Positions 204-52,820 of a DNA stretch of 64,000 bases are shown here, piece after piece. Below the pieces are notes generated by a model, which searched no databases, was not told the DNA's origin, and was given only the letters and a program-made list of their open reading frames with translations. This DNA is from Larus michahellis. Its lineage: Eukaryota > Chordata > Aves > Charadriiformes > Laridae. A program made the position numbers and the translations under genes. The stretch spans positions 63,033,142 through 63,097,141 of the forward strand of contig NC_133896.1 in assembly GCF_964199755.1 (NCBI RefSeq). Reading direction: 5' to 3'. How positions within the stretch are numbered: the stretch's first letter is position 1; every line of letters begins with the position of its first letter.

Positions 204-473
204 TTATCGGGGTGAACATCTATACTCCAAGATATGGGCCAGGTAAATCTTGTGCTTCTCAGAGCTGACAAACATGGAAGGATTTTTTTCTACTATCTAC
301 ACAGCTGTCCAAAAGTCTGTTTGAAATCCCAGGTCTGGTTGGAGGGTGAAGGTAGACTTGATTTCCCCAAACAAAGTCTCCAACAAGAACTTGAGCTACA
401 AACACACCATGGTGGTCTGTGCTGGATGGACAGCATTGATGAAAATAACTGGCACCTTTGGCAAAGTAGCTTC
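204..473 (-). pseudogene. Copy 1 last PARP-catalytic exon, frameshifted, acceptor lost
   Basis: Translation gives GSYFAKGASY, then FVAQVLVGDFVWGN and LLDSCVDS, the second half of a PARP12/PARP13-type ART fold. The frame then breaks at an A7 run (plus-strand T run 283-289). One frame on, MFVSSEKHKIY and AHILEY resume and end at TAA 204-206. Compared with the intact copy (ILEYSS end) the run carries one extra base. The equivalent of the intact acceptor CCTAG reads CCTGG here (plus 473-477), so the AG is gone. The frameshift alone could be a homopolymer error, but the acceptor loss is a substitution. Confidence 0.85.
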
Positions 474-2321
474 CCAGGGACCAGAAAAAGCCATGAGTAA
501 GAAAACGCATAAACCAAAGTAACAAAGATCTGCTACCTGCACTTTAGCAGTCAACTCCTCAACAAGCATCTCCTTCTCTTACCTGCTCCAAGTAGCTCCA
601 AGCACATCCTCACCAGGTGTTTCCACATGAATTTATTTTAAGGCATCAGCAGATGGGGGTGATAACTACTGTGTGTCAGCTGGTCTTCCCCAGTCATGCT
701 TTTTTCTTCCCTGGCCTCCATCCTAAGGAAAGGTCTTAGAACTTCTTCCTTGCAAAACCTGCAGAATAAACAAGGGAACTTTGAGCTGGAGCTAAGAGGA
801 ATCCCTGTGTCACCACAAATGCAAAAAATCCCACCAAGCTTCAGATACTTTTAAAAGAAACTTTGCTAGTATAACAGGAGCTATTTCAGAAATGCCAAAT
901 TGTCTTGAGGGATAAGAAAACCAAAACAAGAAATCTGAGTTCCTGATATATAGCAAACAGCTGCTACTCGCACCTCACACAGAGATAAAGACAATAAATC
1001 ACAGGCCAAACAGTGCTCTTTCAGACTCCCTCTGCAGCTTTGAACTCTATTCTCAATAGAATTAATACTTTAAGCTTTGCTCTCAGACCTCAATTTTTCT
1101 GATAAAACACTGGCCAGTAAGCAGAGCACATTTTCTACAAATTCAGTATATCTGTTACCAGAGAAGAACTGAAGTCGTCACTTGTTTAGATGTATTCAAA
1201 CATTTTCAGTTCCTCTCTATCAGAGGGGTAAAATCCATTTAACCAGTTAGATCTGTCCCCTCCCTGTTCTTTAAGTCAAACTTGTCTACTAATTTCTCAT
1301 GCTCTGTTCAGTCGCAGCCAAGTTTGACACCAGGAAATGTGTAAAACCACACATTACACCTACAAAACAAAGAGCCCACTCCACCAGAGTTTTGACTTAA
1401 TGTTTTTGCGGAATTTTTGGAAAATGCCCATGCCAACTGGAACCACATTTTTTTTTTTTCCAGGAACATTCAATCTTGGTGCTGTTTTTTCCTTGGAAAA
1501 CTTCAGACACAGACTGGTATCTCTGGTTACTGCACTCGAGCACAAGTGACCCTATCCCATGCTCCAGTTGTGAAATGATAGAGGCAGGCACCCAAAACCA
1601 GGGAGCCTTAGGTTCAGTTCAAGTGTAGGATTAAATGTAGGTCTCCCATATCCTGGGGAAACAGTCCACCCACTCCTCTGGCTGTGGTTAATCAAACTCT
1701 CAGATTTCATGAAAAAACCCAAAACACTAGCCTTCTCCATTTTGCATGAGAACATTGTAGTTGTGAGAAGCCAAACAGCAAAGAAAACATTTCTCCAAAT
1801 CCTGTTGTTCTACCAACAGGGAGGGTATGTACAACTCAAACTTATAATGCCTGGGTTTGTTGTTTTTTTCCTAAAAAAGGTCATAGAATCTGATAGATTT
1901 AAAAATGGCTTATGTAAAGCCAGGCTTACAAAATAAGATTTGTATGCACCCCAAATCTAAACCCCAGGTTTATAAAAGGCACCTTTATAATAAAAATCTT
2001 TTAAGTTGCTGGGTTTTCCTAATCAAAATTTCTGACAAAAACCAGGTCTAATTCCACAGGGCCCCAATCCTTTTCGTCAGCCCCCCTCCGATTTTTGGAT
2101 TTGGTTATTTTTCCACCATAAATCAGAGAATCGGAGCGGTTCGCTCCCAAGGAATGCGCCTGAGCCCACGAGGGCCGGGCTACAGAGGCGTGCGGAGAGG
2201 GAGGCGGTTTGCCCTTTGCCAAGGGGGAACCACCCACACGCCGGGAGGACAGGATGGGGGCCCAGCCATTATCTGAATGGCTCCACTGCCACCAGGGGAA
2301 TGAAGTAAAGCGGATACAAAC
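474..2321 (-). other. Copy 1 intron region lacking the catalytic-His exon
   Basis: In the intact copy this interval holds a 152-bp exon encoding LLFHGTS and NFDWRICGTHG. I read the interval on the minus strand and found no equivalent. A block at about 535-645 (TTTAGCAG, then CACATCCTCA and GTGTTTCCACAT) resembles 21295-21375 in the intact copy, so intronic sequence was duplicated together with the exons. The short open frames at 1337-1936 show no recognisable protein. Confidence 0.55.
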
Positions 2322-2452
2322 CACTGGAAATCCTGCCAAAGCATTGGGCTCTGAGTCCTCCAGAGCTTGCGGATGCTGTAATCCTTCATTGTCTGCTGAA
2401 ATAGGTTCTCAGTTTCCCTGTATTTGCTGTCAGCGCAGCTGACTTCTACTAG
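2322..2452 (-). pseudogene. Copy 1 first PARP-catalytic exon (open)
   Basis: The exon is 131 bp, the same length as its partner at 23587-23717. It has acceptor CCAG, donor GTTTGT (the same as the intact copy) and an open frame with LVEVSCADSKY, LFQQTMKDYSIRKL and LWQDFQW. It encodes the N-terminal helix of the PARP catalytic domain before the HG exon. The exon is undamaged but is followed by no HG exon, so it is part of a broken gene. Confidence 0.8.
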
Positions 2453-3396
2453 CTGGAAAGAAGTTAACGCAACACAGACCAATGTGTTACAGCGCTTTCG
2501 GTTACACCTCCCCGTTCCATCCCAAAGGACCTAGCACCACCACCGCCGGTGCGATTGTGGCCTGGGATTTTTCAGAGCCCTTTCTCACTTATTCATGGTG
2601 CTTTCCACACTCTTGTTCCTGTCACAGTGTGCTCTCAACTCCTACTCTGAGAGCTTGTCTATATACAAGGGAGATATTGCTCTCTGTGGAGCACATTTCT
2701 TCTGCCCGAAGAGCATTTGCAGTCCTAAGTGAGCTAAAGCGAAGCTGTGCAAAGACACCGGGGGTTCAGAATAGGTGTCCAGCTATAGGTGTCCGGAAAA
2801 GAGAAGGTGAAATCATTGTTCTATATCAAGAGCACCCTTATCTTTCTTGTGCACCAACTCATCTTCATAGACAAACCCTGATGTTACTTTAGTGGGTCAA
2901 CAAAGCAGCTTTATTGATAATCAAGCTGCCTGATGTTTCAAAAACACACAAGACCTAAATCTCATTATAGCAATACTGAATGAGCTGACGGTGCCTGTAA
3001 TGTGCATGCTTTGATTTGAAATTCTAAAGTGTGACTGAGTTTTAAAGGAGAAACAGTCCTGTGAATAAGGAGCACTGATCATCTACTTCCAGATCATCAG
3101 CTGTCACCTAGGTCAACCCAGCGCAATGGATAAACCAACATTTCTATGCATTTTGGCCATTTAGATGTACAATGCCATGGTGTGAATGGACAGCCCTCTG
3201 TCCCCTGCAAAGCTCTTCTGCAAAGCCGTCTTTGTCCTTCTTGCAGCTGTACATTTTTGAGTAACACGCTGGCAAGCTGAAAACTAACAAAACCAGTCCC
3301 TGAACTCAGGCATGTATTTTAGATTTGCTTGATGCGAGCCATGACAGACTATAACTTTTCCCAAAGTAATGAGCAGATGTGAACAGATATATATAC

Positions 3397-13744: not shown

Positions 13745-13845
13745 CTGCCAAACGAGTGAGCATCAGGAATGACCAAAAATGCAGAGCTGTCTCAAAAAAG
13801 ACAAAAGTGGGGAGGGGGGGGGGAAGAGAAAGAAAAAGAGAAAGG

Positions 13846-14030
13846 AGAAGAGAAGAGAAGAGAAGAGAAGAGAAGAGAAGAGAAGAGAAGAGAAGAGAAG
13901 AGAAGAGAAGAGAAGAGAAGAGAAGAGAAGAGAAGAGAAGAGAAGAGAAGAGAAGAGAAGAGAAGAGAAGAGAAGAGAAGAGAAGAGAAGAGAAGAGAAG
14001 AGAAGAGAAAGAGAAGAGAAGAGAAGAGAT
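13846..14030 (+). repeat. Pentanucleotide microsatellite (AGAAG)n
   Basis: There are about 37 nearly perfect copies of a 5-bp purine unit, preceded by degenerate G/A-rich sequence from about 13810. All six frames across it are open for long stretches, which makes artefactual Arg/Glu/Lys-rich ORFs on the plus strand. It lies just upstream (minus sense) of the copy 3 exons. Confidence 0.95.
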
Positions 14031-15180: not shown

Positions 15181-16148
15181 TCATAGAATTGTTTTGGTTG
15201 GAAAAGACCTTTAAGATCAAGTCCATCCATTAACCTAGCACTGCCAAGTTACCACTGAACCATGTCGCTCAGCAACACATCTACACGTCTTTTAAGTACC
15301 TCCAGGGATGGCAACTCAACCACTTCCCTGGGCAACGTGTTCCAATGTTTCACAACCCTTTTGGTGAAGAAATTTTTCTTAATATCCAGTCTAAACCTCA
15401 CTGACACAACTTCAGGCCATTTCCTCTTGTCCTATCACCTGTTACTTGGGAGAAGAGATCAATCCCCATCTCTCTACAACCTCCTGTCAGGTAGTTGTAG
15501 AGAGCGATAAGGCCCTGAACCTCCTTTTCTCCAGGCCAAACAATGCCAGTTCCCTCAGCTGCTCCTCCATAACACTTGTGCTCTAGACCCCTCACCAGCT
15601 CCATTGCCCTTCTCTGAACATGCTCCAGCACCTCAAAGTCACTCTTCTAGTGAGGCACCCAAAACTGGATACAGTACTCAAGGTGCAGCCTATCCAGTGC
15701 TGAGTACAGGGGAACAATCACTTCCCTAGTCCTGCTGGCCACACTATTCCTGATACAGGCCAGGATGCTGTTGGTCTTCTTGGCCACCTAGGCACACTGC
15801 TGGCTCGTAATCATCCAGCAGTCGACCAACACCCCCAGGTCCTTTTCCACCAAGCAGCTTTCCAGCCACTCTTCCCCAAGCCTGTAGCATTGCATGAGGT
15901 TGTTGTGACCCAAGTGCAGGACCCAATATTTGGCCTTGTTGAATCTCATACCACTGGCCTCAGCCCATTGATCCAGCCTCTCCCAATCCCTCTGTAGAGC
16001 CTTCCTACCCTCAAGCAGGTCAACGCTCTCACCCAACTTGGTGTCATCTGCAAACTTACTGAGGGTGCACTTGATCCCCTTGTCCGAATCACTGATAAAG
16101 ATATTAAAGGTAACGGTCCCAATACTGAGCCCTGGGGAACGCCCGCAG
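15181..16148 (-). mobile_element. CR1 LINE 3' fragment
   Basis: The plus strand begins TCATAGAATTGTTTTGGTTG, the reverse complement of a CR1 tail. Broken minus-strand frames then carry CR1 reverse-transcriptase and C-terminal segments ([46 protein letters not shown]). Several frameshifts show it is old. It stops abruptly near 16148 on its 5' side. Confidence 0.88.
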
Positions 16149-19100
16149 ATTATAGGTAATAAAAAATCATAAACGTACAGGAACTTTCAAAAGGAAAATA
16201 AACTGGAAGATGCAAGGGGCTATCTGCAAAATGCAGTGAGAAAAAGGCTGCAAAAATCAAGAGTGAAACAGTGTACACGGTGTTAAAGAAAGCAGAGACC
16301 AATGCAACTTCTAACAGCTCCTTTGGACTTAGTAAAGGGAAAACCATTCTGAAAATAAAAAATAAATTAAGGAGACCAAAGCTGAAGATAGAGCCCAAGA
16401 AAAATGATTCCGAGAACACACAGTGAAATAAAGCTTCTCTTTGGGAATGGGTAAAGGCACAGCTTCCTTCAGTGGTGGGGATATCATGTGTAGCCACTTC
16501 CCAAGTATTTACAGGTTGAGCAATGGAGCACCGATTAATGGGTCCTCTGACATTGCAGTAAAGCATCTGGAAGGAAAATCTAAGCTTATTAAGAACAGAT
16601 GGATAAGAACCAGCTCAGCCTTTCCTATTGCTCCTATTTGTAAGCTAAATGTATAAGTAATCTTCGGAAGATGGTTTGAGTTGTTTTGGGAAATAGTGTC
16701 TAGGACTCAACATGCCAGACAATAGGCTTCATCAAAAGAAACAGGACTGGAAAAGAACAGGAACAATTAGAAAAAGTTGTTCCCTGAGCAGTAGAAGTCT
16801 GATTCCTACAGATGTGTCTCCTGCAGCCCCTAGCTGAGGACCCCTGCCCTCCCCCAAACCCTCAGCCCCTCATCATGACCACAGCTACACATTGATTTGT
16901 GATTGTTATTCCCTCGATCCCAAAACAGTCTTGTTAAATAGCGCAATTGTCGAGCATGTCATGCCAAGAACAATATCTGTGTTTTCTTCACCTGGCACCC
17001 ATACAGTGTTAGTGCCAGGTTATGGGGCTCAGGTTGATTTTTAGGAGTTTAAATGTTTTGGAAAATAACATGCCATTCAGTGTGTTCAGTCAAGCATTAA
17101 CTTTCTACAGTTTAATCGTCCTGTAATAAATTCTGTCAAAATTGTTAAAAAGGATTCTTAAAAACGCTGAAAAGTCAAATTTGGCACCAGTAAATTAAAA
17201 GAAAGCCTGAAAACTTGCTGAGGTGGTTTTTAATAGCACTTCTAGGACAGGTGCATGAATATGTAACCAACAGCGTTAAAATCAGGAACACAGTGAAGTC
17301 CTAAGAGCACCACAAGAAAATCAATTAGAAATGCATCACATGGAAAAGATGACTTGAGCTAACAGCTTTGCTTCTGGGGACTCTTGTGGAGGCAGCTGGC
17401 CTCTCAGCAGGGCCCTCTCCCTCTGGTCTCCTGCAGCTGCCATGCTCCTGAAAAAACTCCCCATGGGGGCGCAGATCAAGTGCTCCCACAGCACCCACCT
17501 AACAGCAACCATATTTGAAAGGTGGAGAAGTAATTATCCAAGATACCAACTGATGATTTCATCTCATGTTGAGGGTAGCCCTACTCCCTACCCTTGGGCA
17601 GAAGGAGCTTGGTGAACCATGGAGGCTACAGGACAAGCCCACCCTGACACCTGCCTGGCCAGAACCAGCCTGGCTCTCAGGGAAGGCAGCAAATGCCACA
17701 GAAATCAGCTTGGCTACTCACAGCTTTCCTCAGGTCAGACCTTTTCCACCACCATCTCGGGAACTCTGAAACTGTCAGTCCCACGTATCTGAGACAGAAG
17801 TCATTCAACCCTTTCTCAACAGGGTAGGGAGCTCTTCAAACACTTTTTTTTTTTTTTTCAAGGGAAAAAAAATAAATGAAAAGTCCACAGATCAGATCCA
17901 CACTTAGTGCTTGCCAACAATCATGTGTTGCTGATGGTTTGCAAGCATTTCTCCTCTAAGAAGGTGCTGAGGAATGCTTTCTGCTCAGTACTTTGGAAGC
18001 AGACAGGTACTCCAGAGGTAGCAGGAGGTTCAGGTCTGGAAGAAGTTTTGGCACATTTATAATACCAAACAAAACTCCCATGAAGATGTATTCACAGATT
18101 AAGTTGCTTTTCACTTTTACTAGTGTTTTCTGCTCTCAGTGCCTCACTGACCAAAATATTCTCAAATCTTTTACCATTCAAAGCCCTGCTTGGGCTACAG
18201 GCTCGGTATCACCTTACGTCAGTCAAAATCTATCCTGAAGCCCCCCTCTTCTTTATCGGTGTTGACACAAGGAGAACTGGGAACTGTTCTTGCTGAACTC
18301 CATATTTTGGGTTTGGGTTTTGTGGGGGTTTTGTCTTAGTCAGTTTTTCAAGTAGATGAATGCTCTGCACCTGATCCTCCCCACCCCAGTACAGTCACTG
18401 GTACTGGCATAGGGAACACAGCAGCAACACACACCTGGAGGTGGAACTGCTGCTTTTGGCAGCGACACAAACTGAGAGTTCAGAGGGTGACCCTGAAATA
18501 GTGCGGGCTCCTCAAGGAGTGCTTCCGCTTCAGATCTGGTGCTCCAACACCTACAAAGCCAACAGCAGCTACACTTCAGCAGTCCCCCATCATGGCACAC
18601 GGCTGCAGCTGCGCACACCAACCCCCTGCCTGACCTTCTCAATATAATACCCGGCACCTGATTGTTGGAGGCTCTCTCTGCAGCCAGAAATAATGTTTAC
18701 TTATTGGAAAAATCTCCTTTTCTTCCAGACTCTGCATGTTTGAACCTCTCCTCTCTGCCTGGTTTCCTCTTTTTCAGACCAACAAAACCCCTTTTTCAGT
18801 GACTGGCCTGCCCCTTAGTGTGTTCTCCCTTATCTTCTCCTGCCCTCGAGGAGGTTGGCAATCATGCCCTGAAGCCCACCTTGCTGGAAACAGCTTTCTC
18901 CCACACAATGAATGCTTTCTTCTGTCATGGCGGAGAAGAACAGGGGAAGATGGTTTGTACACGGGCATCATTTCACAGAGCATTTTCTCTAATAGCAAAA
19001 CTCTTCCCAAACCCTCCAGCTCCCAACCTCTGTCCTGCCCAAAGGCCATGCATGCAACCCCCAATGAAGCCATGAAGAAAATTTATGCAATGTTGCAAGG

Positions 19101-20946: not shown

Positions 20947-23900
20947 TTACAGGATCATACATTGGGCCCCGCTGCTGTACTCCAAGATATAGGCAGGGTA
21001 AATCTGGTGCTTCTCAAAGATGACAAATATAGAAGGGTCTGTCAGGTCATCCACACAGCTGTCGTAAAGTCTGTTTGAATTGCTGCATCTGGGTGGAGGG
21101 CGAACGTATTCAGGGTTTCCCTGAACAAAGTCTCCAACAAGAACGTGAGCTACAAACATGCTGTAGCGACCACTGCGAGAGGAACAGTATGCGTGAGAAT
21201 AACTGGCGTCTCTGGCAAAGTAGCTTCCTAGGGACCAGAAAAAAACACAGGTAAGACAATACATCAACCAAGGAACAAACATCTGCTGTCAGCGCTTTAG
21301 CAGCCAGTGACTGTGATTCAACAGGCCCGGGTAGCTCTGCACGCATCCTCACAAGTGTTTCCACATCAGCTTATTTTAAATCAACGGACTCTAGCCACAT
21401 TCCACCATCAACGTCCCAGTCCCAACTATCCAAGAGCTTTGCTGAACAGTAGGTACCTCAGGCAAAGAGGGGTGGTTTTAGTCCCTCCTGAAAGGGGATT
21501 TCTGCTGATGCTGCCTGCAGCGATGCAGATGCACAGAGGTGAGAGCAGCCTACCTGGGGTCAGGGACAGTCAGTCACCTTACACCTACCCACCAGCCTGG
21601 CCAAGGTCTGCAGACCCACACGTCTGCACTTGTACCTTTTCCATACTTTGTCCCATGAGTCCCACAGATCCTCCAGTCAAAGTTCTGCTCACAGATGGCA
21701 GGCACGTGGGACGGACTTGTCCCATGGAACAGGAGCCGCTCATCCACTGGTTTTGATTTATTGAGCTTCCTCATCTGCTCCTTTTGCCTAAGGACAAAAA
21801 AAAAATAAAAATAAAAAAAAAGAATTACATGTTACCCTGGTTCAAACGAGGACAATTTCCCAACTCAACTCCTCCTACTTTTGGGTCATGGAGAAACACT
21901 GACACAAACCACTCTCAGTGGGGCTACTGCCTGCTTTGCACTTCTGTTGGTACCCTGCTGCACAGGCTAGCTCCTTCCAGCAAAACAAAAAGTTCTCAGC
22001 ATCGCTATGGACTGCGTCACCCACAACTTCATACCACATGAGAGAGTAAAGAGACAAACATCTCTTGACTGGGAATTGGTCAGTTCCCAGGTTATATAAA
22101 TCCTGGATGCATAAATATGGTTATAAAACTGAGCTGTATAAAGCCACAGTGAAGACTGTATAATCTCTATCCCTATCTTTATCACGTAAGAATTACCAAT
22201 TTTTTAAAAATCCCATGTGGAAGAGACTAAGAAACAAAAAGAATGAATTTGAGGTACTATAGCTCAGTCATGGTAAAGGAAAAGAACTTTCTTTTTGAAT
22301 AACACTGGAAAGAACCCTGCGTTCAACCCGGTAGGTTATGTGACAAAAAGAGCATGGAGACAACCCCAATAACCTGACCACAGAGAGAGGAGCCACAGAC
22401 CCGGCCCCTCCCATGGCTGCCCCAGGGGAGCCTCATCCCCAGGCACCAGGGGACACCCAGCACCATAAGCAATGGAAAGGCTCTGGAGAAGCTCATGGAC
22501 AGAAGTGAGGTACCGCCTACGAGAGTATGGGACTCGTTATGGGACAGCAGGGAAGAGCATTTGGGGATTGCACAGGACTTATAATGGAATGCTTAACAGA
22601 GGAACTATAGGTGGGAGAAGTGAGGGATCAAGATGGTCTGGGGAGGAACAAACATGGGAAAATAGATGAATAAGGTGGTAAAACAGGCTGGTTGTGTATA
22701 AACAGGCAACTGGCTGGTCAGTAGGCTTGTCTGGCCATGCCCTGTGCCTGATCAGAGCAGGCTGTCCTATCTTCTCATGAAACTCTATTTCTAACACTTA
22801 CCTGGGTGATGGACTCTCCAAGTCTGTGTGCGTGAACATGTATGGGGGTTTGGGTGCAGCAACTGGAGCGGGACCTTGGGTCACAGGAGCTGCATGTTCA
22901 CAGCACCACCAACTGCAGCAAGCGAGGGTGTGTGTGTCAGTGTGTGATCACTAGCCAATATCAAGCTGGACAGCCAATGAGGAAGTAGCTGGCCGGGGAG
23001 TCAGGTATCAGAGAAGTCATAAGTCTGGGCCAGACGCTGGAGAGACCAGAAGGTCTGAGTTTGCTTATCAGAGGGACCAGGAGGTCCAGGTCAACCACTG
23101 AAGACACCATGAAGTCTATAGAGATCCATTTGCGTGTGTGTGTGTTGATGCAGAATGTAACTGGAGACAGGAGGACCCACGGGCCAGCACATGGGTAGTA
23201 GGCTGATTGTCCGAGATCGGCTCCTAGAGGGACTCATACACGTACACATGCTCCAGTAACGGGCTTTCATCCCAATCAACCAGAGGAAGGGAAGAGGATG
23301 AGACTGTTGGTGCTGTTTACGGTTGCATGAGTCCTGTGCTGTCTGTGTTGGGTTTTGTGTCCAGCTGTGTGTGTATTCATACGTTTTGTGTGTATGAGGG
23401 GGTTTGTGCGTGCGTGTCTACTGGGAACATGTGCTGAACCCTGCTACCAGCTGGACCCGGCCACACCTCTGCGGGAGGTCTCACCTCTGGATTTGGCAAC
23501 TCCTAATGCAGGCTGTGGAGGACAATAGATCAGGAAATACCAGTCTTCTGCTACCATAAGGATAATGAAATAAAATAGATACAAACCACTGAAAAACTTG
23601 CCAAAGTGCAGGGTTCTGGATCCTCTGTAGCTGATGGATGTAGTAATCTTTCATCGTCTTCTCAAACAGCCTCTTAATGTTTCCATATTCACTGGAAGTG
23701 TAGCTGAGCTCTACCAACTGAAAATTTTAAAAACACCAAAAATATGGTGTTACTGACAGTAACAACTCCCAGTCCTTTCAAAGGACTCATCGACCTCCTC
23801 ACATCAGAGGAAAAGCCCTGCCATTAAAATCACAAGCTTCTCCTGTCTTTCCAGTTAACCATCCTCTCACTACCTTCACCCTCGCTCCCCACATGGAAGC

Positions 23901-38187: not shown

Positions 38188-41100
38188 TCAGTAAGTCTTG
38201 ATTTCTTGTTGGACGACTTCCAGCAGTAACTGTAGTTTGTGTGTAAGATAATCTGAAAGGGGACGGGGCGGGGAGGGAAGGAAGAAAGTTTAGTCCAGAG
38301 GAAATCTCAAGATAGGGCTTAAAATCAGAGCATCAGCGTTGATGGCTGGATTACTATATTAGCAGATTGCTGTAACTCTTTCCTTTCTTGCTGTATGTTT
38401 TCTTCTGTTCAGTGGTTACCGATTCACCTCAGCCCAACATCAAGTCAAAAGAAAACAAGATTGATAACTGAAATTATAAATTAAACTCAGAACTGGGCTC
38501 TTTGTGTGACACCAGGGCTACACCCAAAGGAAATCTGTGCTAGACATTGCATGGAGCGGAGATGTATTTCATTTACGCACCCGCATCAGTGCCCAAAACC
38601 ATCCTGTCCTCGTCACCAAACAGATAGCCTTCAGGTAGCCCCATCTTCTCCTACCAGTCCTCTCCCCAGCCTTCAAGCAAGTATGTTTGTGCACGGGGTT
38701 ACAGTGTCTGCCTGTCAAGCTGTCCACCCTAACTTTTGATCTCGTTGCTCATTGTCAGCCAAATCTGACAGAGAGGTGAGGTGGTGATCCCGAAGATATG
38801 ATGAAGTTTAGCAGGAAGCAGGGTTGGGGTGCTCAAGTGACCCTCTCTGTTCCCTGCCGTTGGTAGACCTCAGCCCTGTCTTTTTTTAAAACAAAGCATC
38901 AGGCTGGCTTATCAGTCTATTCACAAGCCAGGCAGCCAGGGCCCGTGCCCGGCTGCCAACCACCCACAGCACAGCCTACCCCTCGTCTCTTTGGCTGCAG
39001 AGGCTGTGTCTTGGGAAAGCCATTGCAGGGGTGGCAGGGTTTGTGATTTAGGTTTCACGAGGTCTGTTGGTCATGGAGCAATTTGTGTTAGAGATGAGCC
39101 CTGGGAACAAACCAACATCCCCAGCCCTGACCCTGCTTAGGGTCCGCTATACTGAAACTCAAAAACATACTTACAAAACAGGCTACGGCAACGACTTGAC
39201 ATTTGCCTATGGATTATGAGGTAGTAGACTGGAAAACCACTTAAAACCATGGTGCATCCGATGCTAATGTTCACAGGGTCTGAGTAGAAAGACATTGCCA
39301 CTGTGAAGAGGCAGATGATGGTAAAAGAGACAGGAACGAACAAGGGAACCTGGGGAAAAGAGCACAGAAGACTCTCAGGCAAAACTGATGGCTGTGGCAA
39401 ATCGGCCTCCACACTTGCCAGTACACACTGTATTCACTTCTCCATCTTAAAGAAGATGAGAAAAATCAAATAGCTGTCCTCCACACTGCTTCTGTACCAT
39501 CAGTTGCAAATGAGTAGGATGCATAGAACAAAAATTGACTCATACCATCTTCGTAGCCCAGGTGCATGCCTCCTTGTATTCATGTGCATGAAAATGTAAA
39601 CCTCACTTGCAACGGGAAGCCAAGCAGGGGGAGAAGTCACCGATACCCCACTGGTTGCTGAATGTACTGCTCCTGTGCATGCACGTGTACCTACTTGCCA
39701 CCTGAGGCAACTGCTGGTGGAAAATCTGAAGCCAAGAGTAGGAGCAGCACTTTGAATTAAACCGTTCTTTGGTTATAACACTCATGACTCATTTTGACCT
39801 GCCTCCAGCTTGCCTGAGACTTAGAGCAGCCAAAATAGGATAAACCAGACACCCTATCTTCATAGCACTTGCATCAAGAACATGAGCTTCAATAACACCC
39901 TGACGAAAGACCAAAGAAGCAGTCAGCACTTCAGCCTTACCCTGTTGGGTGAGCCAATGCATCTGGGTTATTTGGAGAGTAAGTCAGAAGACTGCAATAA
40001 ACAATAAAACTGTGAAACATTCCCTCAGTCTTTGGATCCAACCTCAGCCAAGTTCCTCCTCGCCGTGGCTGATAGAACGAGGGAGCTGCTGGTCTCACCT
40101 AGGGTGACAATCTCTTTTCCGGTAACAGAGATCCTATTTTGGATGCTGACCATGCCAAGCTGGAAGAGTTTGGTTGCTCTAGCGGTGGCAGCCAGCCAGC
40201 CACCAAACTTATGTGCTCTTGCTGTCTTTCCAGCTGGAGCATCCCCTGCCAGCCTCTCCTACGTGCAGGCACTCACGCTGCCCATCTCCCTGAGAGGTGT
40301 GCGAGAGGACAGCTTCCTCCTCTTACTGGTGTTTTCTCACACCATTTCTAACTCAAAGTGCTACTGGGGAGAAGAAGTACCACCACAATCACATGTATTT
40401 TATGATTTGTTCTGTGTAAACTGGTGGCAGAAGACGACCTCTCTCTGGCCACTAGAGCGCAGCACATGCCCACACCACCTGCGCTCCTGCTGATAATTGG
40501 GCTTCGGGTTTGAAGTGGTTATAAACACGGGAGGGGGGGGGGGGGGGGGATAAAAAAATCAGCCAAACAGACCAAAAGCCCAGCATTTCCCTCCCTCACT
40601 TTATCCGCCTTTAGGAGCCGTTAAAAGCCTTAAATCTCTGTCTAAACCAAAATGGGGCAAAGTCTCAGCAGCTGAAAACGTCACCAGTGCTATCCACTAA
40701 TTAACTTCCCCTGAGAAGCTTGGTTTAAAAGAAAAAGAGAAAACATATTTACAATCTGGGTCTGGGTGAGTACGCGAGTGCAGCCAGCCAACAAACTGGG
40801 AAGCTTCAAGGTCCCTGCTAAACACACAGTCTCCAGCAAAGACAGAGAAGAAAAATTACCCCAATCTTCCCACCGGGCCTCGGGAGGCACAGGGAGGAGC
40901 CCTGGGAGCAGCGGGAAGCATTTCTGTCCCCTGAGCTTCTTGCTGATCGGCTGCCCGGTGCCTGTGGCCTCAGAGGTCCCCTCCCCAGGAGCTGGCTGGA
41001 TGCACCAGGCAGGCACAACTGGAGACAGGATCAAAATGTACCACTCAAGCACCACCTTGGCCAAACACCTTCTGCACATTATCCAGCAGCGGGAAAGGTG

Positions 41101-44100
41101 CTCCAAGCGCAAGAAAGCTGCTCCAGCACCAACTCCAACTTCCCCCACCAGGACGAGGAGCATCCCAGCACCCATCAGCGTAAGAAGGGCCACCAGAAGG
41201 GCCCAGCTGGAGGCTAGGGAAAGGCACAGGAGGATAAGGCGTCCTACACTTTGTGGTACACATCCAAGCTCTTTGCACATCCTCAGGGCCTGCAGCCACA
41301 ATAGTTGCACACGTGCTGCTTTACAATTTTTTTGTGCCAGCAGATGATACCCCATAAGCCAGGTTTGCTCCCAGGATCCCTCCGGCCATGCTCTTTTCCC
41401 CCAAGCCTGACACCCTCCTGCTTCTCAGCTAGAGCCGAGACTTACCTACCACTGAAAGAACATCCAGGCAAGGGCCTCTCCTTGCAGCCCACGAGAGACG
41501 GGCGTGGGAACTGCCTTCTGCACATCTCCCAGTTCCCAGCCTGAAACTTTGTCCCCTGGAGCAGGCTGCCATCCTAGAGACGTGACTGGTGACACCATGT
41601 AGAACCGGCTTTATAGGATTTACCATATCTGGCTGTTTGGGCACATTAACCGGTTTCAGGAGCTCCCCCTCATCCCTTATTGAGCAATAGGGATTGAGAC
41701 CCCTTGCAGCCTAAAGGCAGCTGTGGCCATGTAATGCTCTAATTATTAGCAAATAAGGAAGAGAAATGACAAGCCTGGGCATTCCTGGCTGTTAGATATG
41801 TGCCATGTGTTACCTTGAACGGGCTGCGCAGCTCCGGGTGACGGTGGCGATGGACAATGAGCCCAAGGGTGGCTAATCCTATGAAGAGCCATCGGGAAAA
41901 GCTGAAGAAGTTCATTAGATGGTAGATATCTCCGATACACACCATGGCAGTTACCAAAGGGAACTGAGCATTGTGAAGATGAAATACAGTCATTAAACCC
42001 TTACTACGGTCCTCGGACTAGAAAGGGTAATATGGATCACCTCCTCCGGCCCCCCTGCAATCACAGGCAGCTATTTCACAGCCCCAGCATTTCAGAGGTC
42101 AGCGAGCTTTACAAAACAGCGACACAGACTGAAGGCAAAAGCTCTGAACTCATTTTTATGATGTGCTACGCAAAGGAGCAATCCTTTCAAGATCAACAGC
42201 ATCTTTGATGCTTTATGTCCTAGGCAGGCCAATTAAAACATGCACGATCCAAAAGCCTGTGCTGTCGGCACAAAGGTTACCTACAAAGATACCTGCTAAG
42301 TTTTTAGCAACTTGGTTGACCTGCAAGAGGAACTGCAGCACAGTTAGGATGGAGCTGGACCATTGCCAGAAAAAAAAACCACCACCAAAACCGAGACCAT
42401 CTCTGCAAATGGTCGTTCCCTGCATTTCCACCATACCTGTGAATTTCAGTTTTCCAAATAGCCAAAGCCTGGCAGAGGTGTTTTCATAGGACCAAATCAA
42501 GCAGCAACCGTGGCAGATGGTAGGGACAGTACTTTTAAAAAAGGTGTCCAAGGCTATAAGGCAGGGACTTCGAGGTAGTGGGTTTGGATACCACTGCTGG
42601 CACAAGGGCACTTAATACTTTGCAGCCGTTTCCAATATTCCACCTTCTTTATTTTTCAGAGTCTGACTTAGTGTCTCAACACCCTTTAAAACTCCTCAGC
42701 TTCTCCAGGCTTTGCAAGAAAGCCAAGACAGCAAGAACAGGGCATGTCACACAGCCAGGTCTCCTTACCATCAACATGACAGCAGGAAGGGGTGTATGCC
42801 TTCGAATGTGGATCATGGAGAAGAGAGGAGGCCACTGTCCTTCCCTGGAAGCCACAAACAGAGTCCTAGGAAAAGACAGGGAGCCCTATGCATTAGCATC
42901 CCACATGCAGACTAGAAATGAGAAGATCAGCCGCTGGACTGACCTGAGGCCACAAGGCGCATCCCCAGCACAGGTCTGCTATTCAAGGCCACAGTTCTGC
43001 CTTTAGGTGCACTTTTGGGGCATTTGGAAGAAAACCCCAATGTTGAATTCCCATAGCTTTTCCAGGACCAGTTAGCTCAACGCAGTGCAGAGCCCACCAG
43101 CAGGACCACCAGCAGCATCCCCCTTGGGCGGCCCATTATCAGAGACCTTTGGGCAAGTCCAAAGTGACCATGAATGAGTTCAGGCTGGAAACAGAAGCAA
43201 GAAAGTTTCTTGCCATCAGAGAAAGGGTTAATCTTTCCAGTAGGAAGTGGAGGGGTCACAAATGTCAATTCTTTACAAGAGAGGCTGGTGAGTCTGTGAA
43301 AGCGAATTGTCAGTCTTGATGCCTATATTTTTTAATATATATATATTAAAAGATATAAAAATATATATAGATAAAAAAATAAAGTGCAATTTCCTCAAAT
43401 AATAGAGAATTTGCAATCCTCTGGCCAGCTATTGGAAAATATATTTTGGCATACTGCCGAGAGGCCAGCTACACACAAGACCAGCTACAAAAAGACAGCA
43501 GAGAGCTCCTTGCCTCCATCCCTCCTTCGACTCATGAAAGGGCGATTAGGGAGAAGGCATTGCATCCAATTTTATAAATTTAATATCCACAAACAAACCA
43601 TGCCAGAGCATCAGCTGGGCTGGAGCAGGGCCAAAAGCAGCTGGGGCAAGAGTGTAAAACTGTTTTTATTGCCGTCTCCGTGGTTTTGCAGGGGTGTGGC
43701 TGGCCAGCAGCCAGGGAGGCCCCATAGCTGTTTATGTGGCCTTTCTGCAGTGATTATGTTAATGGTGCCAAGATGGGGGAGAGAAAGGCAATAGGGACGC
43801 GCAGAACTGCTGTGCCATCCAGGGACTTCTCATCCTCAAAGAAAACCACTATCTAAAGGAGCTAATGGGGAGGATTCTCCGCACCTGTATTTAATACAGG
43901 ACTTCAGTGGATCAAGTAACTCATAAGCTTTCGCGGTATGAAACATCCCTTTCATATCAACTGATTTTTCCTTTTGCAATCCAAGCTGTGAAACAGAACC
44001 AGCTCCAGAGAGTTCACTCAGGTCCTTGGGACCAGCACGACGTGCTTCTCCATAAGCTCTGCCCTCCTCTCCAATTTCAAGGCTCCCATAAGGACGTGCA

Positions 44101-47100
44101 GTGTAGAGGCCAGTGAAGCTGGCAAGGTGACTTTGCCATGGAACAAAGCTTTACTTATTGCTACAACAAGACTTGTTGATCCTCAACTATTGCTTTAGGA
44201 ATAGCCTGTCCCTGATAATATTTCACTGAGCTCAAAGCAAAGTCCTCAAGGGAGAGTTTGCCTTTGGCCAGAGATCCTCACAACAGAGGGACCCCGTGCC
44301 CTCTAGCAGAGCAGCTGGGTGAACCCAGCGAAAGAAGAGCAGGTCTCACTGAGCAGCTGCCAACATCAACAAATCCTCTAGTTCACCAGAAACATTGACA
44401 TTTCACTTTAAACTGGGAATTTAAACCGAAGAGTGGGGTGGAAGATGATAAAAATCTTTGTTTCTGAGCAGCCCTAGGTACCAAAGCCTGGACCTGGCCA
44501 GAAATAGAAAGGGTCAACTCTTAGCCAACAGGAACCATCCTGTAGTTGATATTCTGTGAGTCAAAGGCCTTATTTTTCCCACAGGAGTGGCTAAAATGCC
44601 ATCATATGTGTGGGCAGTTGCACAGGTCGCTGGTGCTTCCCTCCAATTCAGTAAGCCTAAAGAGCAATAAATTCTTAGGGACGTGACCTTGAAAACGTGA
44701 AGATTCCTCCATTCATGGTTCCAAAGCAGGACAGTGCGACAAGAACAGGGACCACGGAGATCAGGCTTTTGAAGGCTCGCTGCACAAAGCTCTGGAGGAA
44801 GGGAAAGCGCGACTTTAGGAACATGTGGTGATCTCTAAACAACATCAGATTCAAGAGAAAGACAACTTCCTCCATCAAAGGAGTAAAATATGACTCACAA
44901 ATCTTGCTTTTTCTACTGTCATCTGAATGTTATTTTTCATTATCTTTTAGGCAAGACTAGAAGAAGTTACTGTCGTCCAATAATCCAGAGAAATGAGAAA
45001 GCGATAAGGCGCTTTATTCGAAAACCATCTCCAAAACACTTGCCATGACCACACCTTCCTTTAGCATAAGGATGACGGCAGGGGAGACGACTCACCACAG
45101 CCACAGCAGGAGAAGCCAGAACATCTTGCGTTCCCAGGACTGTGTAATAGGAGACATTGGTGAGCATGTACCCCACAATTACCGTGATGACGGACACGAT
45201 GACAGCCAGGGGGATATTTCTACAAGAAAGGGGAAGAGAGGCACACAAAGAACAAGCTGTTATCCCTTGTTATGCGCGCTACTACTGCAGATTGCGGCTG
45301 GAGTTGGTTCGGTGAACCCACAAACTTATTTCCTCTCATTCTGCATTTGGGAAAGCCACGCTACCCCAGATGCTGGTAACCCAAGACGACTTCTTCCCAG
45401 CCTTACCGTTCAGGTCTGACCAACTCTTCACGCACAAAGCTGGTCTGAAACCTGCAGGGTGGGAAGAGACAGGGAGAGAGTTTGAGCCATGCCACGGGGA
45501 CCAGTCTGCTGCCCGGGAGGCGCCCTCCTGTCACACCTACCAGCCTGAATACGCGAACATGCCTGCGTAAAAAGCCAGGGGCAGCTTATCCAAAACCAGC
45601 GACTGCCTGTCGAAAGCGTCCTGGAAGTTTTCGGTGTGGCCTGCAGAAGAGATAAACAAATGGACACGGAGCAGGAAAATGTCAGAGACGGGCTTCCTTC
45701 CCGCGGGATAACACCCCTTGTACCTCTTGCCCAGACCTGGGAAGAATGTTTGTGACTTCCTTGGAGACAGATATTCGGATTTGTTTCATTGCTTTAATTT
45801 GCAGCGCTGTGCTGACGCGTTTACTTCACAAACAGGGACAGAACAAATCCATCCCCCATCCAGCTACGGGACACATTTCAGGAAGGGCAACGGCGGCGGC
45901 TGGTTCTGTTTCAGACAGAGCCTGCTGTGGGAACGGGAGATCGTGGAGACGAGAGGACCCAAGTTGTCCTGTCCTTTCTTTAGGCCCAAAATTAATTCGC
46001 TGGGTTGGCCTCCCTCCTCCCTTCTTCCAGCCCCCCAAGCAGCTGGATGCACGCTTCTCTTTGATGTGGTGCAGCCAACGAGGCAGCTAATTTGGCTCTG
46101 TCTGTGCTCCCTCCTGATCCCGCTGCCGGAGCACTGACCCCAGCCCCATGCTGGCCGGAGCATGGGAACCAGGACGGAGGAAGAAGCAGGGAGCGGGGAC
46201 AGCCATCCTGGCCCCCCACTCCGGGCACAATCCCTGCCCGCCACCCCTGCCAGCCACCCCAGCTCGCCTGCAGGAGGAGGGAATGAGGACATGGAGGGAA
46301 AAGCAAATAAAATTTAAAAAGTAGAGGTGGCTCAGATAGAGATCCCATTTTACCAATCCCCCAATTTTCCTAAAAATTCTAAGCTTGAAATAACAACAAC
46401 AAAAAAATCAAACAAACAAACAAAAAAATACCAAGTCAGGATTTTGGATATGAACCATATTTTATCAAACTCAAAAAAAAAAAGTAAGGAAGGGAGAAAC
46501 ACCTAACGGCCTCTAATTCAAAGGAAGACTAATAAAAAATTCAGTCAAAAGCAGATGTATTTCCAGCATTTTCAAGTATGGGTAGCCCAAGGTTTGGTTC
46601 CACATCTATATTCAGTTCTCCCTGTCAAAATCTCTTTAAAAGTAAAAGGTACAGAGCTCACTTAGTTGGGCTTTGCCGGGAAAGGGATGAAATGGCAGAA
46701 GGCACGTGGAGAAAGTCAAGCCACTTTGATGGAGGTGCCTCTGCAAGGAGCTCTGTGACGAGATTTGGGCATTTGGGTTTGAAACACTGGCCCAGCAAGT
46801 CTCTAAAACAAACCTGACCCAAAGGGAACGTAATGGCAGAGGAAAGGACAAGAGTGTAACCATAGAAAGTAGAACAAGGCAAGGGAATCAGGCAAACTGA
46901 TTTAAAGGCACAAAACTTATTTTTAAGCACAAAAAACCCAAGTCAATAAGAAAACAGATTTGAAGAAAACTAAACCAAAATACCGGAGTGGGCATATCAG
47001 GGTAGTCTTTTTATGTTCTAAAATGACTGCTGGTAAGTGATGGTGCATAAAAAGGATTTATTGTCTGCAATGCATTAATGAGTGATTTACCGTCCCCCAT

Positions 47101-50100
47101 GAGTCACATTAAATACAACCTGTCATATTGGGGTCTCTTGGTGAATTCTCCCTCCAGATGTCACAGGCACTTCTCCTCCTCACTGGAGGACTGGTGCCAG
47201 GGCTCCAGATTGTCATTTAAAGGCATTCCTAACAATAATGGCTCAGGATTTCTAGCTGCAGGGCAGTCCTTCAGTTCAGAAGTGCTGCCAGCCCAACCGG
47301 ATCTTTGCATGTTCAAAGGAGCCAGCTCCAGACATCAAAAAGAAACAGGAAGGTGGTGGAGCCTACTGCCTGTGTTGTTTTCTCTGCAGAGGAAGGTAAG
47401 AGCACGAAGAGGGAGCAGGCTTCATCCCTTGAGTGGGAATGCCTTGGGCTCTTCTATAAACTGAGGCTTGGATTAAAGCCAACACTCTTGTATCACTCCC
47501 AAAAGATACTACTGGTAGTGGGGGGGTTTCCCCACTCTGGATGTGAGTATGCAACCCATGCGAGTCCAACGTAAGTTTACTAAGTTACTGCCCGTCTCTA
47601 TTAGGAGGTAAAAAACACATTAGCTTAAGCCACAGAAGGGTTAGAGATGCAGTTACCAGTGCTCAGCTGAGGGCCGATAACTCATTGCACAGCTGTGACT
47701 GTCACCACGGGATGCTGTCACACATCCCTGATGTCCATCAAATTTGTGCTGCTTTCGAAAGATTTCGAGCCACGCTGAAAACAGGCAGGTCTGACACCAA
47801 AGAAAGACCATCGACAGGGGAAGGTGCCTGTATGACCCTCAAACGGCCTCAGACACTGAGACTCGCTCAGTTTTGGGGCGCATCAGCCCAATGCAATGAT
47901 GCAGCTTAGTGCCAGCTACCGTGGTGTCAGCTCCCAGCAAATTCACATCCAGCAGACAAGCAGAGAAAGCTCCTGCCAGCGAAAGGAGGACCACACTCGT
48001 CACTAGGGACCAATAAAAGCCGCGATGGGTGAGTTATGTTGAGCACCCTCCCCCAGCCACGCAGCAGCGCACCTACCCTGGGCCAGCAGCATCATCCCTG
48101 GCACAATGATGAGCGCAAGGGCCAGCAGTTTGATGACGGAGAGAGCTGTCTGCAGCCGGGCACTCCAGGTGACGCTCCAGGAGTTGAGGGTGAGGACCGT
48201 GTCTGGAGAGGAGACCACACTGCTACAGCTGCAGCCCATGCTCAACACATGCAAGAAAAAAATACGGCAGCGCTGCCTGCTCTAGGGATGCCAGGGAGAA
48301 GGCTGTGTCTTTACAAAGAGGATGCCCGGGGTGAGAGATATCAGAAAATATTACAGTGTGGCCCAGTGTATAGTGCTTGAAGGGGGAGCTGAGTTATGCC
48401 CCTAAGAGGGACCAGGAGCCCGGTTCCTGTCGGGTGATCCACGCCTGCCTGGGGGGAAAGGTGTGAGTTTGCAGGGAGGTCTCAGCAGCCCCCTTCACAG
48501 CGGTCCCTGTGCCGGCACACACCAGCCTGGAGCAGGCAGGACAGCTTCACAGGCAGCAGGCGAGGAGTACAAAACCTTGAGCCTTACGCCCTCAACCCAG
48601 GTGGCATTTGCACAATTATAAGTGAAGAGTTTCTACTCCCGTACTTGGCACAATCCCCAGGGCTCCAGCTGCTCGACGGGGAAGCCCATTCTCCTTCTTA
48701 GAGAATATAGTGGCCCTGAACCAGCGCCTTGGATCAGGAATTTTTGTGTGGTCAAGGAGGTAAGATAGGGCCCCGATCCCACAGTTATCCTAGAAGATAA
48801 CACCCCATAAGTGACCCTGGTCTGGGGCAGAGAGGCTCGGAGATTGGCATTCCAGTAGAAGCTAGTACTTACAGTACCCCAGGAGAGACACGAGCTTCAC
48901 GGCGGGGACAGGGGCTGCACAGGGGGCAAAAAACGGCTCCAGCATGTAGCGTCCGAATGCCAAAGAAACCACAGCGCTGTTGGCAGGCCTGCAGGGGGGG
49001 GAAATCGAGTACAAACTGTGGTCTGTGGGCAGCCAAAAAACGGCATCATATAAAACCGCACAAAACTTGGGAGGGGGGAAAGTTTCCCCACCCAGCTTAA
49101 TCCTGCCCTCCCATGCAGATGGTGAATTCCCATAGAGCCTTTTTCATGGGTTTTTTTCAGTAACCAGGTAAAAAATCACATGCTGCAAAAAAGATTCATT
49201 CCAACTTGAAAGCAAAAGTTGAGATTAATTGTACTGAGCAACGGTTCATATGCCCTGCTTCATCTCAGCTTACGTGAAGGACGCAGGTTATTGAGAGGTG
49301 AGGACTTTCCTTTTAAAGTGAAAAAATAAATCATTTACAAATTTCTACAGTATTATCTAACTCGGGGTTAAATCAGCAAGTTGTCTGCACAAGAGAATCC
49401 AAAAAAGTTTCACAATGAAAACAGAAGATCTGAAATAAATCTGGCATCTATTGTCAGTCTCTGAACAACACTACGGCTCTTGGAGGATAGCAGCTGCCAG
49501 GGAAGAAGAGAGATATTCTTCAAGTACAGATCACACTGATCATGTGTAACTATTTACTCATTATGCCTTCTTCCTTTTATCACTGAAAATCTTTAAAAGT
49601 TGTTCAGATTTTTTTTTCTCTTTCCTTTACAAACTGCCAGGACCGTTCCCTGGTACCATAACTTGTTTTTGTTTTTTTTTCTTTAAATGATCATGGCAGC
49701 CATCAAAAGGCAAACAAACAAAAACTCTTACCTGATAGCAAAAAACTCTGCCCACAGGAATAAGAAACTTGGCAGAGGCCCTAATGTCTCTAAAATGTAG
49801 ATATAATGTCCTCCAGACTTGGTGATTCTTGTTCCAAGCTCTGCATAACACAAGGCACCTGGAAAAGTTCAGGTAGAAAGGCACTGAGTAAATCATCCCA
49901 TGGTTTTTCTCTTTTCTGTGAGACTTTCCAGGGATTTAATTAATCTGTTTAAAAAGTAGCGAATTAGAGGAAGAAAAAGGGCTTTAGCAGAACCACTCTT
50001 CCTTATTTTTGTGTACTACAGTGTTCTGAAGTAAGTTTTGAAGTAATTGATTTCTCTGTCAGAAGGAAGGAAATTCTCCATTTTTCTGGTTAATGGTACA

Positions 50101-52820
50101 ACTTTTCCATGGAAGTTATGTGGAAAGCTGTGTGATAGAAACGTTGCACTAAGCTACAAGAGGTTTCCTTCGAAAAACATCCTGGAGGTCTGGGTTCTCA
50201 CTTCTCCTCAGAGTTAGACTGGTGAAATGGTGTTTACAAGGCAGTTACATCAGTTCAGCCAACAGGCCATCACTGAACTGGTCATTTCAATCACTTTTTT
50301 TGATCACAGACCACGTTCCTGTGTCCTTATCTTGCATCTTCACATAAATCCCTTCCTTCATGCAAAGACACTGGACAGAGGACCTAGCAGGGCATCTCCT
50401 CTGAGAGGAAAGACCTGCCACTGGAGGAAGCACGGCCCCGATGGTGCAGAGCAAGAGAAGCGTCCGCGTGAGGGGCTCAGTCGGTCCCTTCTCACATGTT
50501 CACGTACAAGTGCCCAGACAGACCCAGGAACTGCCTGCTCCTGCCTTGACAAGCGCCTCTGCACCTCCCTGCCCCTGCGCCGGGGCACAGGGAGAAACCC
50601 TGGGAGTGGTGTGCCGGAGAAGACAGCTTAAAACTTTCAAGAAAACGGATAGAAACCTTTATGCGTCCGCCTGTGCCAAAAAAATCCCATCTGTGTTTTC
50701 TCTATAGGGTAATTCATCGCGCTGCCTGAACGGGCCTATGTACAAATCTTAAGCCCTGACTACACTGGATTCACTTGCTAGGTTAAACATCCTTTGTTAA
50801 CCAAAAGAAGTCATAAAACACTTGACTTTTTTTGAGCACAACTCTCCTTGCAATGAGGCTGGGCGCTGTTGGGATGTGACCCTGTGGGGTAAGACCATCT
50901 CTAGCTGCGCCGTCTACTCCTTTGCCCAGCTCAAGTGGCTATGGAGGGAAAGTGCAGAGGAACCCTGTGGTGACATGGCCATGCCTCCAAGTCCCGTGGC
51001 GATCGTGCCATATTCAGGTAATGTTGATGGTGAAGACCTCAATTTTTCCCACCTCTCTGTTGGCAAATTTGTGCAGAATCCCTGTTCAAATTGGTGAATA
51101 CAGGCAGACGCCTCATCTCATTTATTCCGGTGCATCTCTTTACATACTTCAAGTGTGAGTTCAAGTGTTTGCTGAACTTATGCTAGGGGACTCGTATAAA
51201 TGCTGTACTTGAAAGAAAAAAAGCATGTAAGAAAGCAGGCCTTTTTAATGTACCGCAAAAAAAGTGTCAGAGAAATGATCAAGGGAGGTCATCAAGCTGA
51301 TAAACGGGAAGAGAAAACCAACAAATTTGGCTACAAAATACAATAACTTGATAAAGAGGTTCCCAAGGCCCTTCCAGCAGAGTCTATCAAAGGATGTAAG
51401 AGAGAGAAACCTTTCCAAGTGCAGAGCTACATGATCAGCACACACACCTTACCATTTATCGTTCTGCTCAGTTAAAAGAAACACCATGCTCACGTTATAT
51501 TTTAAGATTTTTCTTTAAGCAAAAGTATATCATTCACCAAACAACCACACATAGGCTGCAACGTGAAATATCGGTATGCGCATGCTAAGAGCAAGAACCA
51601 CATTTGTTGCCATATTAACAATTTAATATCTCAATTTCTAAACTTGTGTGTACATGCCACAGTGCCGAAGTGTTCTTTTCTCACATGGAGTATTTATCCT
51701 CTCTCGTCTTTTTGTTCCCAAGTTGTGACAGAATAACTTTAAAGTCACGCGCTGAAATAAACATCAGATTTCTCCCTAGTGCTGAGAGATCTTGCAGTTC
51801 TCCTAACAGCACCTTTACAGTGTTTCCAAGATGATGGTTTTATACAGCTAATGAAGGAAACTAAAAGCCATACATCTTATCCATCATAACTTTAAGAGCT
51901 ACATTATTTCAGAAGAACTAGAATGAAACTGTCATCAAAAAGTCCACCCTTTGTGAGAACAGACTGGTATTAAATGTCAGACACCGAGTCATGGGTAACG
52001 CACAGAAGGCAGGGCTGAACTGCCCCGCTCCATCTCCTGCTCCAAGGCAGCATCAGACACATCCAAACCATTTCTGACAGACACCCAGACACCCACCCCC
52101 GGGCTGATGGATACTCTGCAGCTCCCCAGGCAACCTCTGCTCTAGTGCTTCTCTGTCCTCCCCAACAGAAAGGGGATCCCTTATGGTGTATTAAGACTGT
52201 CACTTCTTGGCCTTTTCATAGTGTCTATGAAAAGCACTGCACAGACTCACAAGTGCCTTTTAGATGCCTACATCTCCCTTCCACCTTATAGAATGAGTCC
52301 CCTCATCATCTTCTCCCAGCTTTCCTGGCAGAGACCACGCTGTCTCCACCTGCAGTCATTGTCACTCCTCTGCCCTGGACTCGCACGTGGTTTCATGTTC
52401 ACAGACCGTAAGTCCTGGGATTTGCTCGGTCACCGTGAGAGAATCACTTGAACTAAAGACCCCTGGTGTCCCCGCTCAGGCTTGTTAAACCTTTGTTTCT
52501 GTAGCGGTATGAACAGGCAAATTTTGATCTAGTCTGCTCCCAACTTTTTATGCATAAAAACGTGCTGGCTCCCCTCACCGCCCAGGTGCTTAAGCAAAGG
52601 CTGACAAAGCTCACCACCACTCACCGAACATTGAGAGGACCCCACAGGCAAACCAGACCACCAGGGAGAAACCCACGCTGCCGGAGTTTTTCAGTACTCC
52701 TTTTGGGGAGATAAAGATGCCACTGCCAACCATGCTGCCGATGAGGAGCGAGAAAGCCCTCACCAAAGTTATCTTTTTCCTCAGAAAGACGGCCTCCTCT
52801 TTTTTCTTGTCTTTCCCCAT
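38188..52820 (-). CDS. SLC7A11-like: xCT-like (SLC7A11-related) amino-acid exchanger light chain, 12 exons, intact
   Basis: Coding exons: 52625-52820, 49732-49858, 48873-48988, 48077-48202, 45541-45640, 45407-45451, 45096-45219, 44688-44791, 42769-42865, 41814-41963, 39175-39349 and 38188-38252. They sum to 1425 bp, or 474 residues plus stop. The ATG has a good context (GCCATGG) with an in-frame TAG shortly upstream. The protein is a 12-helix APC-family transporter: [12 protein letters not shown] in helix 1, [17 protein letters not shown] in helix 10. Known of xCT: plasma-membrane cystine/glutamate exchange as a disulphide-linked heterodimer with 4F2hc. Here Arg108, Cys131, Lys171, Cys300 and Arg369 match human Arg135, Cys158, Lys198, Cys327 and Arg396, a constant offset of 27, and 501 minus 27 is 474. 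Phe217 stands at human Tyr244. Only about half the residues agree in places, so it is a paralogue or fast-evolving orthologue. The exon 8 donor GTCACG is weak. Confidence 0.93.
40533..40549 (+). repeat. G17 homopolymer in a transporter intron
   Basis: It lies in the intron between coding exons 10 and 11 and is preceded by GGGA. It appears as a C-run in the transcript. Length may be unreliable in the assembly. Confidence 0.9.
43327..43380. repeat. AT-rich low-complexity tract in a transporter intron
   Basis: About 50 bp of TATATA/AAAATATA sequence between coding exons 8 and 9. Confidence 0.85.

Follow-up and report, generated by a model that had tools for sequence, protein, structure and literature searches.

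An intact xCT-type transporter gene beside PARP12-type exons in Larus michahellis, probably an old paralogue of SLC7A11

On the minus strand of a 64,000-nucleotide stretch of the Larus michahellis genome (contig NC_133896.1, positions 63,033,142 to 63,097,141; the whole stretch is called the window below, and positions count from its first letter) lies a gene of the type of SLC7A11, the gene of the cystine/glutamate exchanger xCT (system xc-), followed downstream on the same strand by pieces of a PARP catalytic domain. The gene comprises 12 exons and encodes an intact protein of 474 residues, as reconstructed in the original prediction, with GT-AG ends at all 11 introns and a frame free of stop codons and frameshifts. 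We propose that it is probably an old paralogue of SLC7A11, an intact SLC7 light-chain gene of the xCT branch, and not canonical SLC7A11. xCT governs glutathione supply, ferroptosis resistance, extracellular glutamate and pheomelanin pigment, and a second avian exchanger of this type, if real, would complicate the bird work that assumes one SLC7A11. The start codon has G at -3 and +4 and is preceded by an in-frame stop 4 codons upstream, and the exon 8 donor, which matches the donor consensus poorly, is the single odd splice site of an otherwise regular gene.

In BLASTP, 254 of 472 columns are identical between the window protein and human xCT (54%, E 1e-180), and one single-residue gap near the C-terminus is all that separates the alignment from the gapless one first claimed. 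The N-terminal tail is 27 residues shorter than that of human xCT, as had been noticed, and the earlier statement that whole helices differ was too strong, the identity ranging from 39 to 72% among consecutive stretches of roughly 25 residues. When solved structures were searched with phmmer, the human xCT chain came first (1.7e-167), followed by a consensus-mutated xCT chain and then by LAT1 (4.9e-125), and the Pfam family PF13520 (AA_permease_2) covers residues 17-436, nearly the whole protein (E 7.3e-53). The comparison was extended to ten rows, namely the window protein, human xCT, LAT1, LAT2, Asc-1, y+LAT1, y+LAT2, b0,+AT and SLC7A13, and an unverified mouse xCT. The identity to the window protein decreases from xCT (53.9%) to LAT1 (44.9%), y+LAT2 (41.5%), b0,+AT (41.1%), y+LAT1 (40.7%), Asc-1 (40.1%), LAT2 (38.9%) and SLC7A13 (32.7%). 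In the tree of these ten rows the window protein joins xCT with a support of 99/100, which becomes 100/100 in an 8-row tree leaving out the long branch of SLC7A13 and the mouse row. The window protein shares 24 of the 90 columns found in xCT only (a set defined on human xCT and the unverified mouse xCT). In controls where it was replaced by each of the seven remaining human paralogues, 2-16 of 92-106 xCT-only columns were shared, and columns unique to one other paralogue were shared less (from 3/70 for Asc-1 up to 4/39 for y+LAT2). Seven human light chains, without SLC7A13, have 98 invariant columns in common; the window protein keeps 88 of them (90%), and each human row, when left out in turn, keeps 80-99% of its own invariant set. 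Tree and signature residues thus support the assignment of the predicted protein to the xCT branch of the SLC7 light chains. A grouping with LAT1, named after the tree was seen, was rejected on the 8-row tree (approximately unbiased test, p-AU 5e-14). No relative was found by tblastn of the window protein against viral contigs, nor by tblastn of an alignment against genome contigs and viral contigs.

The substrate site was inspected at 34 alignment positions (site residues are numbered as in human xCT unless a window number is given), of which 26 are the same as in human xCT, including Arg48, Gly61, Arg135, Cys158, Gln191, Lys198, Tyr281, Cys327, Gly334, Phe336, Arg340, Arg396 and Trp397. The eight changed positions are Thr56Ser, Ala60Ser, Cys197Ile, Tyr244Phe, Tyr251Gln, Ser330Thr, Ala337Thr and Leu392Phe. 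Cys131 of the window protein aligns with Cys158, the cysteine of the heavy-chain disulphide, which is Cys in all ten rows, and window residues Arg108, Arg369 and Lys171 correspond to the xCT clamp Arg135 and Arg396 and to Lys198, in line with the expectation that the 4F2hc-linking Cys and the Arg/Lys/Arg set had been kept. The clamp is described as unique to xCT, both arginines being essential for cystine uptake and the tested variants inactive (PMC8654953). Of the ten rows, only those of xCT and of the window protein combine Arg135 with Arg396; since LAT1 shares the Arg at position 135, it is the pair, and not Arg135 alone, that marks xCT. The xCT-branch tyrosines at 244 and 251 are not kept, their places being taken by Phe217, as originally read, and by Gln. 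Phe at 244 is also found in LAT1, LAT2, Asc-1, y+LAT1, y+LAT2 and SLC7A13; b0,+AT has Gln at 251. Beside Tyr251, in the TM6B part of transmembrane helix 6 (TM6) encoded by exon 6, three residues invariant in the seven human light chains are altered within 5 columns (L252T, N253S, T256R), a clustering with a permutation value of 0.03 in a test picked after the changes were seen.

These residues lead to a putative mechanism. The window protein is predicted to form a disulphide between its Cys131 and a heavy chain of the SLC3 family and to work as a sodium-independent antiporter, the anionic substrate being gripped between Arg108 and Arg369; most likely it would import cystine against glutamate by the arginine clamp of xCT. 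Phe217 at the outer gate and Gln224, Thr225, Ser226 and Arg229 in and beside TM6B suggest an altered affinity, range or gating, and of these an altered affinity or range is what we would expect. In xCT a large aromatic residue is required at position 244, and in the glutamate-bound form Tyr251 meets Arg135 (PMC8654953). Phe at the gate would suit the aromatic need but would be without the hydroxyl by which Tyr244 could bond glutamate, and with Gln at 251 the tyrosine contact to Arg135 would be lost. The same changes could be taken further, to a separate paralogue which no longer exchanges cystine and glutamate and whose TM6 changes turned it to another anionic or to a neutral substrate. Such a loss could account for the substrate-site changes Tyr244Phe and Tyr251Gln, for Ser330Thr, for the cluster in TM6B and for the occurrence of Phe244 and Gln251 in light chains other than xCT; however, Arg48, Arg135, Gly334, Phe336, Arg340 and Arg396 are all kept and Phe qualifies as the large aromatic residue wanted at 244, and we regard it as unlikely, though it is the most serious of the alternatives. 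An old xCT-branch paralogue with the exchange conserved and a changed TM6 gate remains our preferred interpretation.

The age of the split was estimated from the 10-row tree, in which the branch of the window protein measures 0.93 and the xCT side consists of a stem of 0.24 and tips of 0.043 (human) and 0.076 (mouse), that is 0.24 + 0.04 to 0.08, against the human and mouse tips themselves. At an even rate, the split would be several times older than that of human and mouse; it looks older than the bird-mammal split and closer in time to early vertebrates, a rough estimate given the unverified mouse row and the long window branch, and from which we infer an early-vertebrate age of the duplicate. 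In relative-rate counts, changes specific to the window protein (50-59) outnumbered those specific to xCT (31-41) with all six outgroups, the chi-square exceeding 3.84 in three of them.

The neighbourhood of the gene is summarized in Table 1. The two PARP pieces above the Pfam cut-off, when joined, have PARP12 as their best match in the PDB (9e-59). A diverged second copy of the PARP12-type exons, probably a tandem duplicate, was also observed, as were a reverse-transcriptase relic, probably of CR1 origin, and a GAAGA array. Such a relic and the compactness of the xCT-type gene would suit a bird genome. Rfam gave no match at the gathering threshold in the 64-kb window.

Table 1. Features of the window, with coordinates counted from its first letter.
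Feature	Position	Strand	Remarks
xCT-type gene	52820..38188	-	start codon at 52820, stop codon ends at 38188
Exon 1	52625..52820	-	ATG, short N-terminal tail; donor gtgagt, phase out 1
Exon 2	49732..49858	-	Arg108 codon (human Arg135) split between the end of exon 2 and the start of exon 3
Exon 3	48873..48988	-	Cys131 (human Cys158)
Exon 4	48077..48202	-	Lys171 (human Lys198)
Exon 5	45541..45640	-	Phe217 (human Tyr244)
Exon 6	45407..45451	-	45 bases; Gln224 (human Tyr251); L252T, N253S and T256R changes
Exon 7	45096..45219	-	
Exon 8	44688..44791	-	Thr303 (human Ser330), Gly307 (human Gly334); donor gtcacg
Exon 9	42769..42865	-	
Exon 10	41814..41963	-	Arg369 (human Arg396)
Exon 11	39175..39349	-	
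Exon 12	38188..38252	-	ends in the stop codon
First downstream AATAAA or ATTAAA	37467		
PARP catalytic-domain piece	23484-23726	-	below the Pfam cut-off
PARP catalytic-domain piece	21577-21831	-	above the Pfam cut-off
PARP catalytic-domain piece	20950-21288	-	above the Pfam cut-off
Reverse-transcriptase relic	15791-16186	-	RVT_1 5.1e-05, under the Pfam cut-off
GAAGA array	13823-14029		period 5, 41.4 copies, 95% matches
Second PARP12-type copy	2286-2459	-	71.0% DNA identity to 23551-23724
Second PARP12-type copy	220-553	-	76.6% DNA identity to 20975-21306; PARP score of piece 262-543 below the Pfam cut-off

In chicken, SLC7A11 is reported on chromosome 4, beside PCDH18 (PMC11004871), in contrast to the gene studied here, which adjoins PARP12-type exons. 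No PCDH18-like frame was noticed in the open reading frame lists, which were read by eye with no search aimed at PCDH18, and 64 kb may not reach that far. The human PARP12 and SLC7A11 genes lie on different chromosomes, and no paper was found in the literature on PARP12 together with SLC7A11 and synteny. The chicken map position, the different neighbour and the deep divergence speak for a gene distinct from SLC7A11, without proving it. The claim of a second xCT-type transporter stands as far as the xCT branch is concerned and is favoured as regards a separate gene. The opposite view is that the gene is the canonical SLC7A11 of the species, fast-evolved and relocated, with no second gene in existence, and we consider this quite improbable: xCT is the best match of the window protein, no second SLC7A11-type gene was seen in the 64 kb in view and the turkey and chicken papers discussed below do not, in the passages concerned, set their '-like' genes apart from SLC7A11, but the 54% identity, with an end branch of 0.93, is below the 67-69% of zebrafish Slc7a9 to higher vertebrates, and the neighbour is of the PARP12 type and not PCDH18. 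Decay or lack of expression of a duplicate, for which the long branch, the excess of window-specific changes and the poor exon 8 donor could be invoked, is very improbable in view of 474 codons without stop or frameshift, regular ends at every intron and 88 of 98 invariant columns kept.

Several points weigh against an old paralogue of SLC7A11. The presence of both genes in one genome is presumptive, xCT is represented in the tree by a human and an unverified mouse row, and the long window branch (0.93, against 0.24 + 0.04 on the human side) may reflect a fast-evolving orthologue or a later duplicate. Tyr251, the partner of Arg135 in xCT, is Gln and Ser330 is Thr, and the top NCBIfam model, TIGR00911, scores 516 bits, below its cut-off of 701.8, which concerns a label more than a defining trait. 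The 3 kb upstream carry no antioxidant- or amino-acid-response motif, each of four NRF2- and ATF4-type patterns giving 0 matches there (means of 0.015 to 2.68 in shuffled sequence). Neoaves are claimed to lack SLC3A2, the heavy chain that normally serves (PMC10722388), a statement repeated by a companion paper (PMC10698284); papers on hidden GC-rich bird genes warn in general against claims of absence of bird genes, and SLC3A2, SLC7A11 and SLC7A5 have 0 occurrences in the main text of two of these papers on missing bird genes. Lastly, the turkey and chicken papers, in the parts concerned, do not distinguish the '-like' gene from SLC7A11 (PMC12491267, PMC13371210), and the function of the chicken gene is referenced to the paper on chicken xCT cloning (PMC13371210).

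Even so, an old paralogue remains the probable interpretation, and a wider scenario can be tentatively drawn, to which we give slightly less than an even chance: early vertebrates would have had two xCT-type exchangers, of which mammals kept SLC7A11 only, the second surviving in fish and birds, here beside PARP12, with a retuned TM6 gate and its own substrate range or regulation. If two such ancient exchangers exist, birds would have a system xc-like activity of their own. As a natural variant in which the arginine clamp goes with a changed TM6 gate, the protein would also be a test of the residues that set cystine specificity.

Genes of this kind appear in the literature by name or listing, and their orthology with the gene of L. 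michahellis is a lead. A zebrafish table lists under SLC7A11 two genes of its type, slc7a11 (chr 14) and si:ch73-352p4.8 (chr 4) (PMC8478756), and in 2023 SLC7A11 was said to occur in duplicate in Neoaves, on searches that used UniProt entries (PMC10722388). Turkey LOC100548731 (PMC12491267) and one chicken gene (PMC13371210) share the xCT-like name 'cystine/glutamate transporter-like', the chicken gene being upregulated in one table and called downregulated in pancreas in the discussion of the same paper. No paper was found for 'SLC7A11-like' in the chicken literature and no functional study of such an xCT paralogue in the literature searched. Certain bird gene lists thus name genes of this type already, with a function apparently unstudied; of the two descriptions offered by the original prediction, 'undescribed' is probably wrong, the turkey and chicken lists and the Neoaves report being leads to what may be this gene, and 'little studied' fits.

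Among characterized transporters, SLC7A11/xCT is the closest, with 54% identity and with Cys158, Lys198, the Arg135/Arg396 pair, Gly334, Phe336, Arg48 and Arg340 in common; the window protein differs from it by Tyr244Phe, Tyr251Gln, Ser330Thr, the L252T/N253S/T256R cluster and the shorter N-terminal tail. SLC7A5/LAT1, at 45% identity, has the same Arg at the 135 position but Asn at 396. Besides xCT, the light chain listed as carrying amino acids of negative charge is SLC7A13/AGT1 (PMC8478756), yet its identity to the window protein is 33% and it has Gly at both 135 and 396, where the window protein has the two arginines of xCT.

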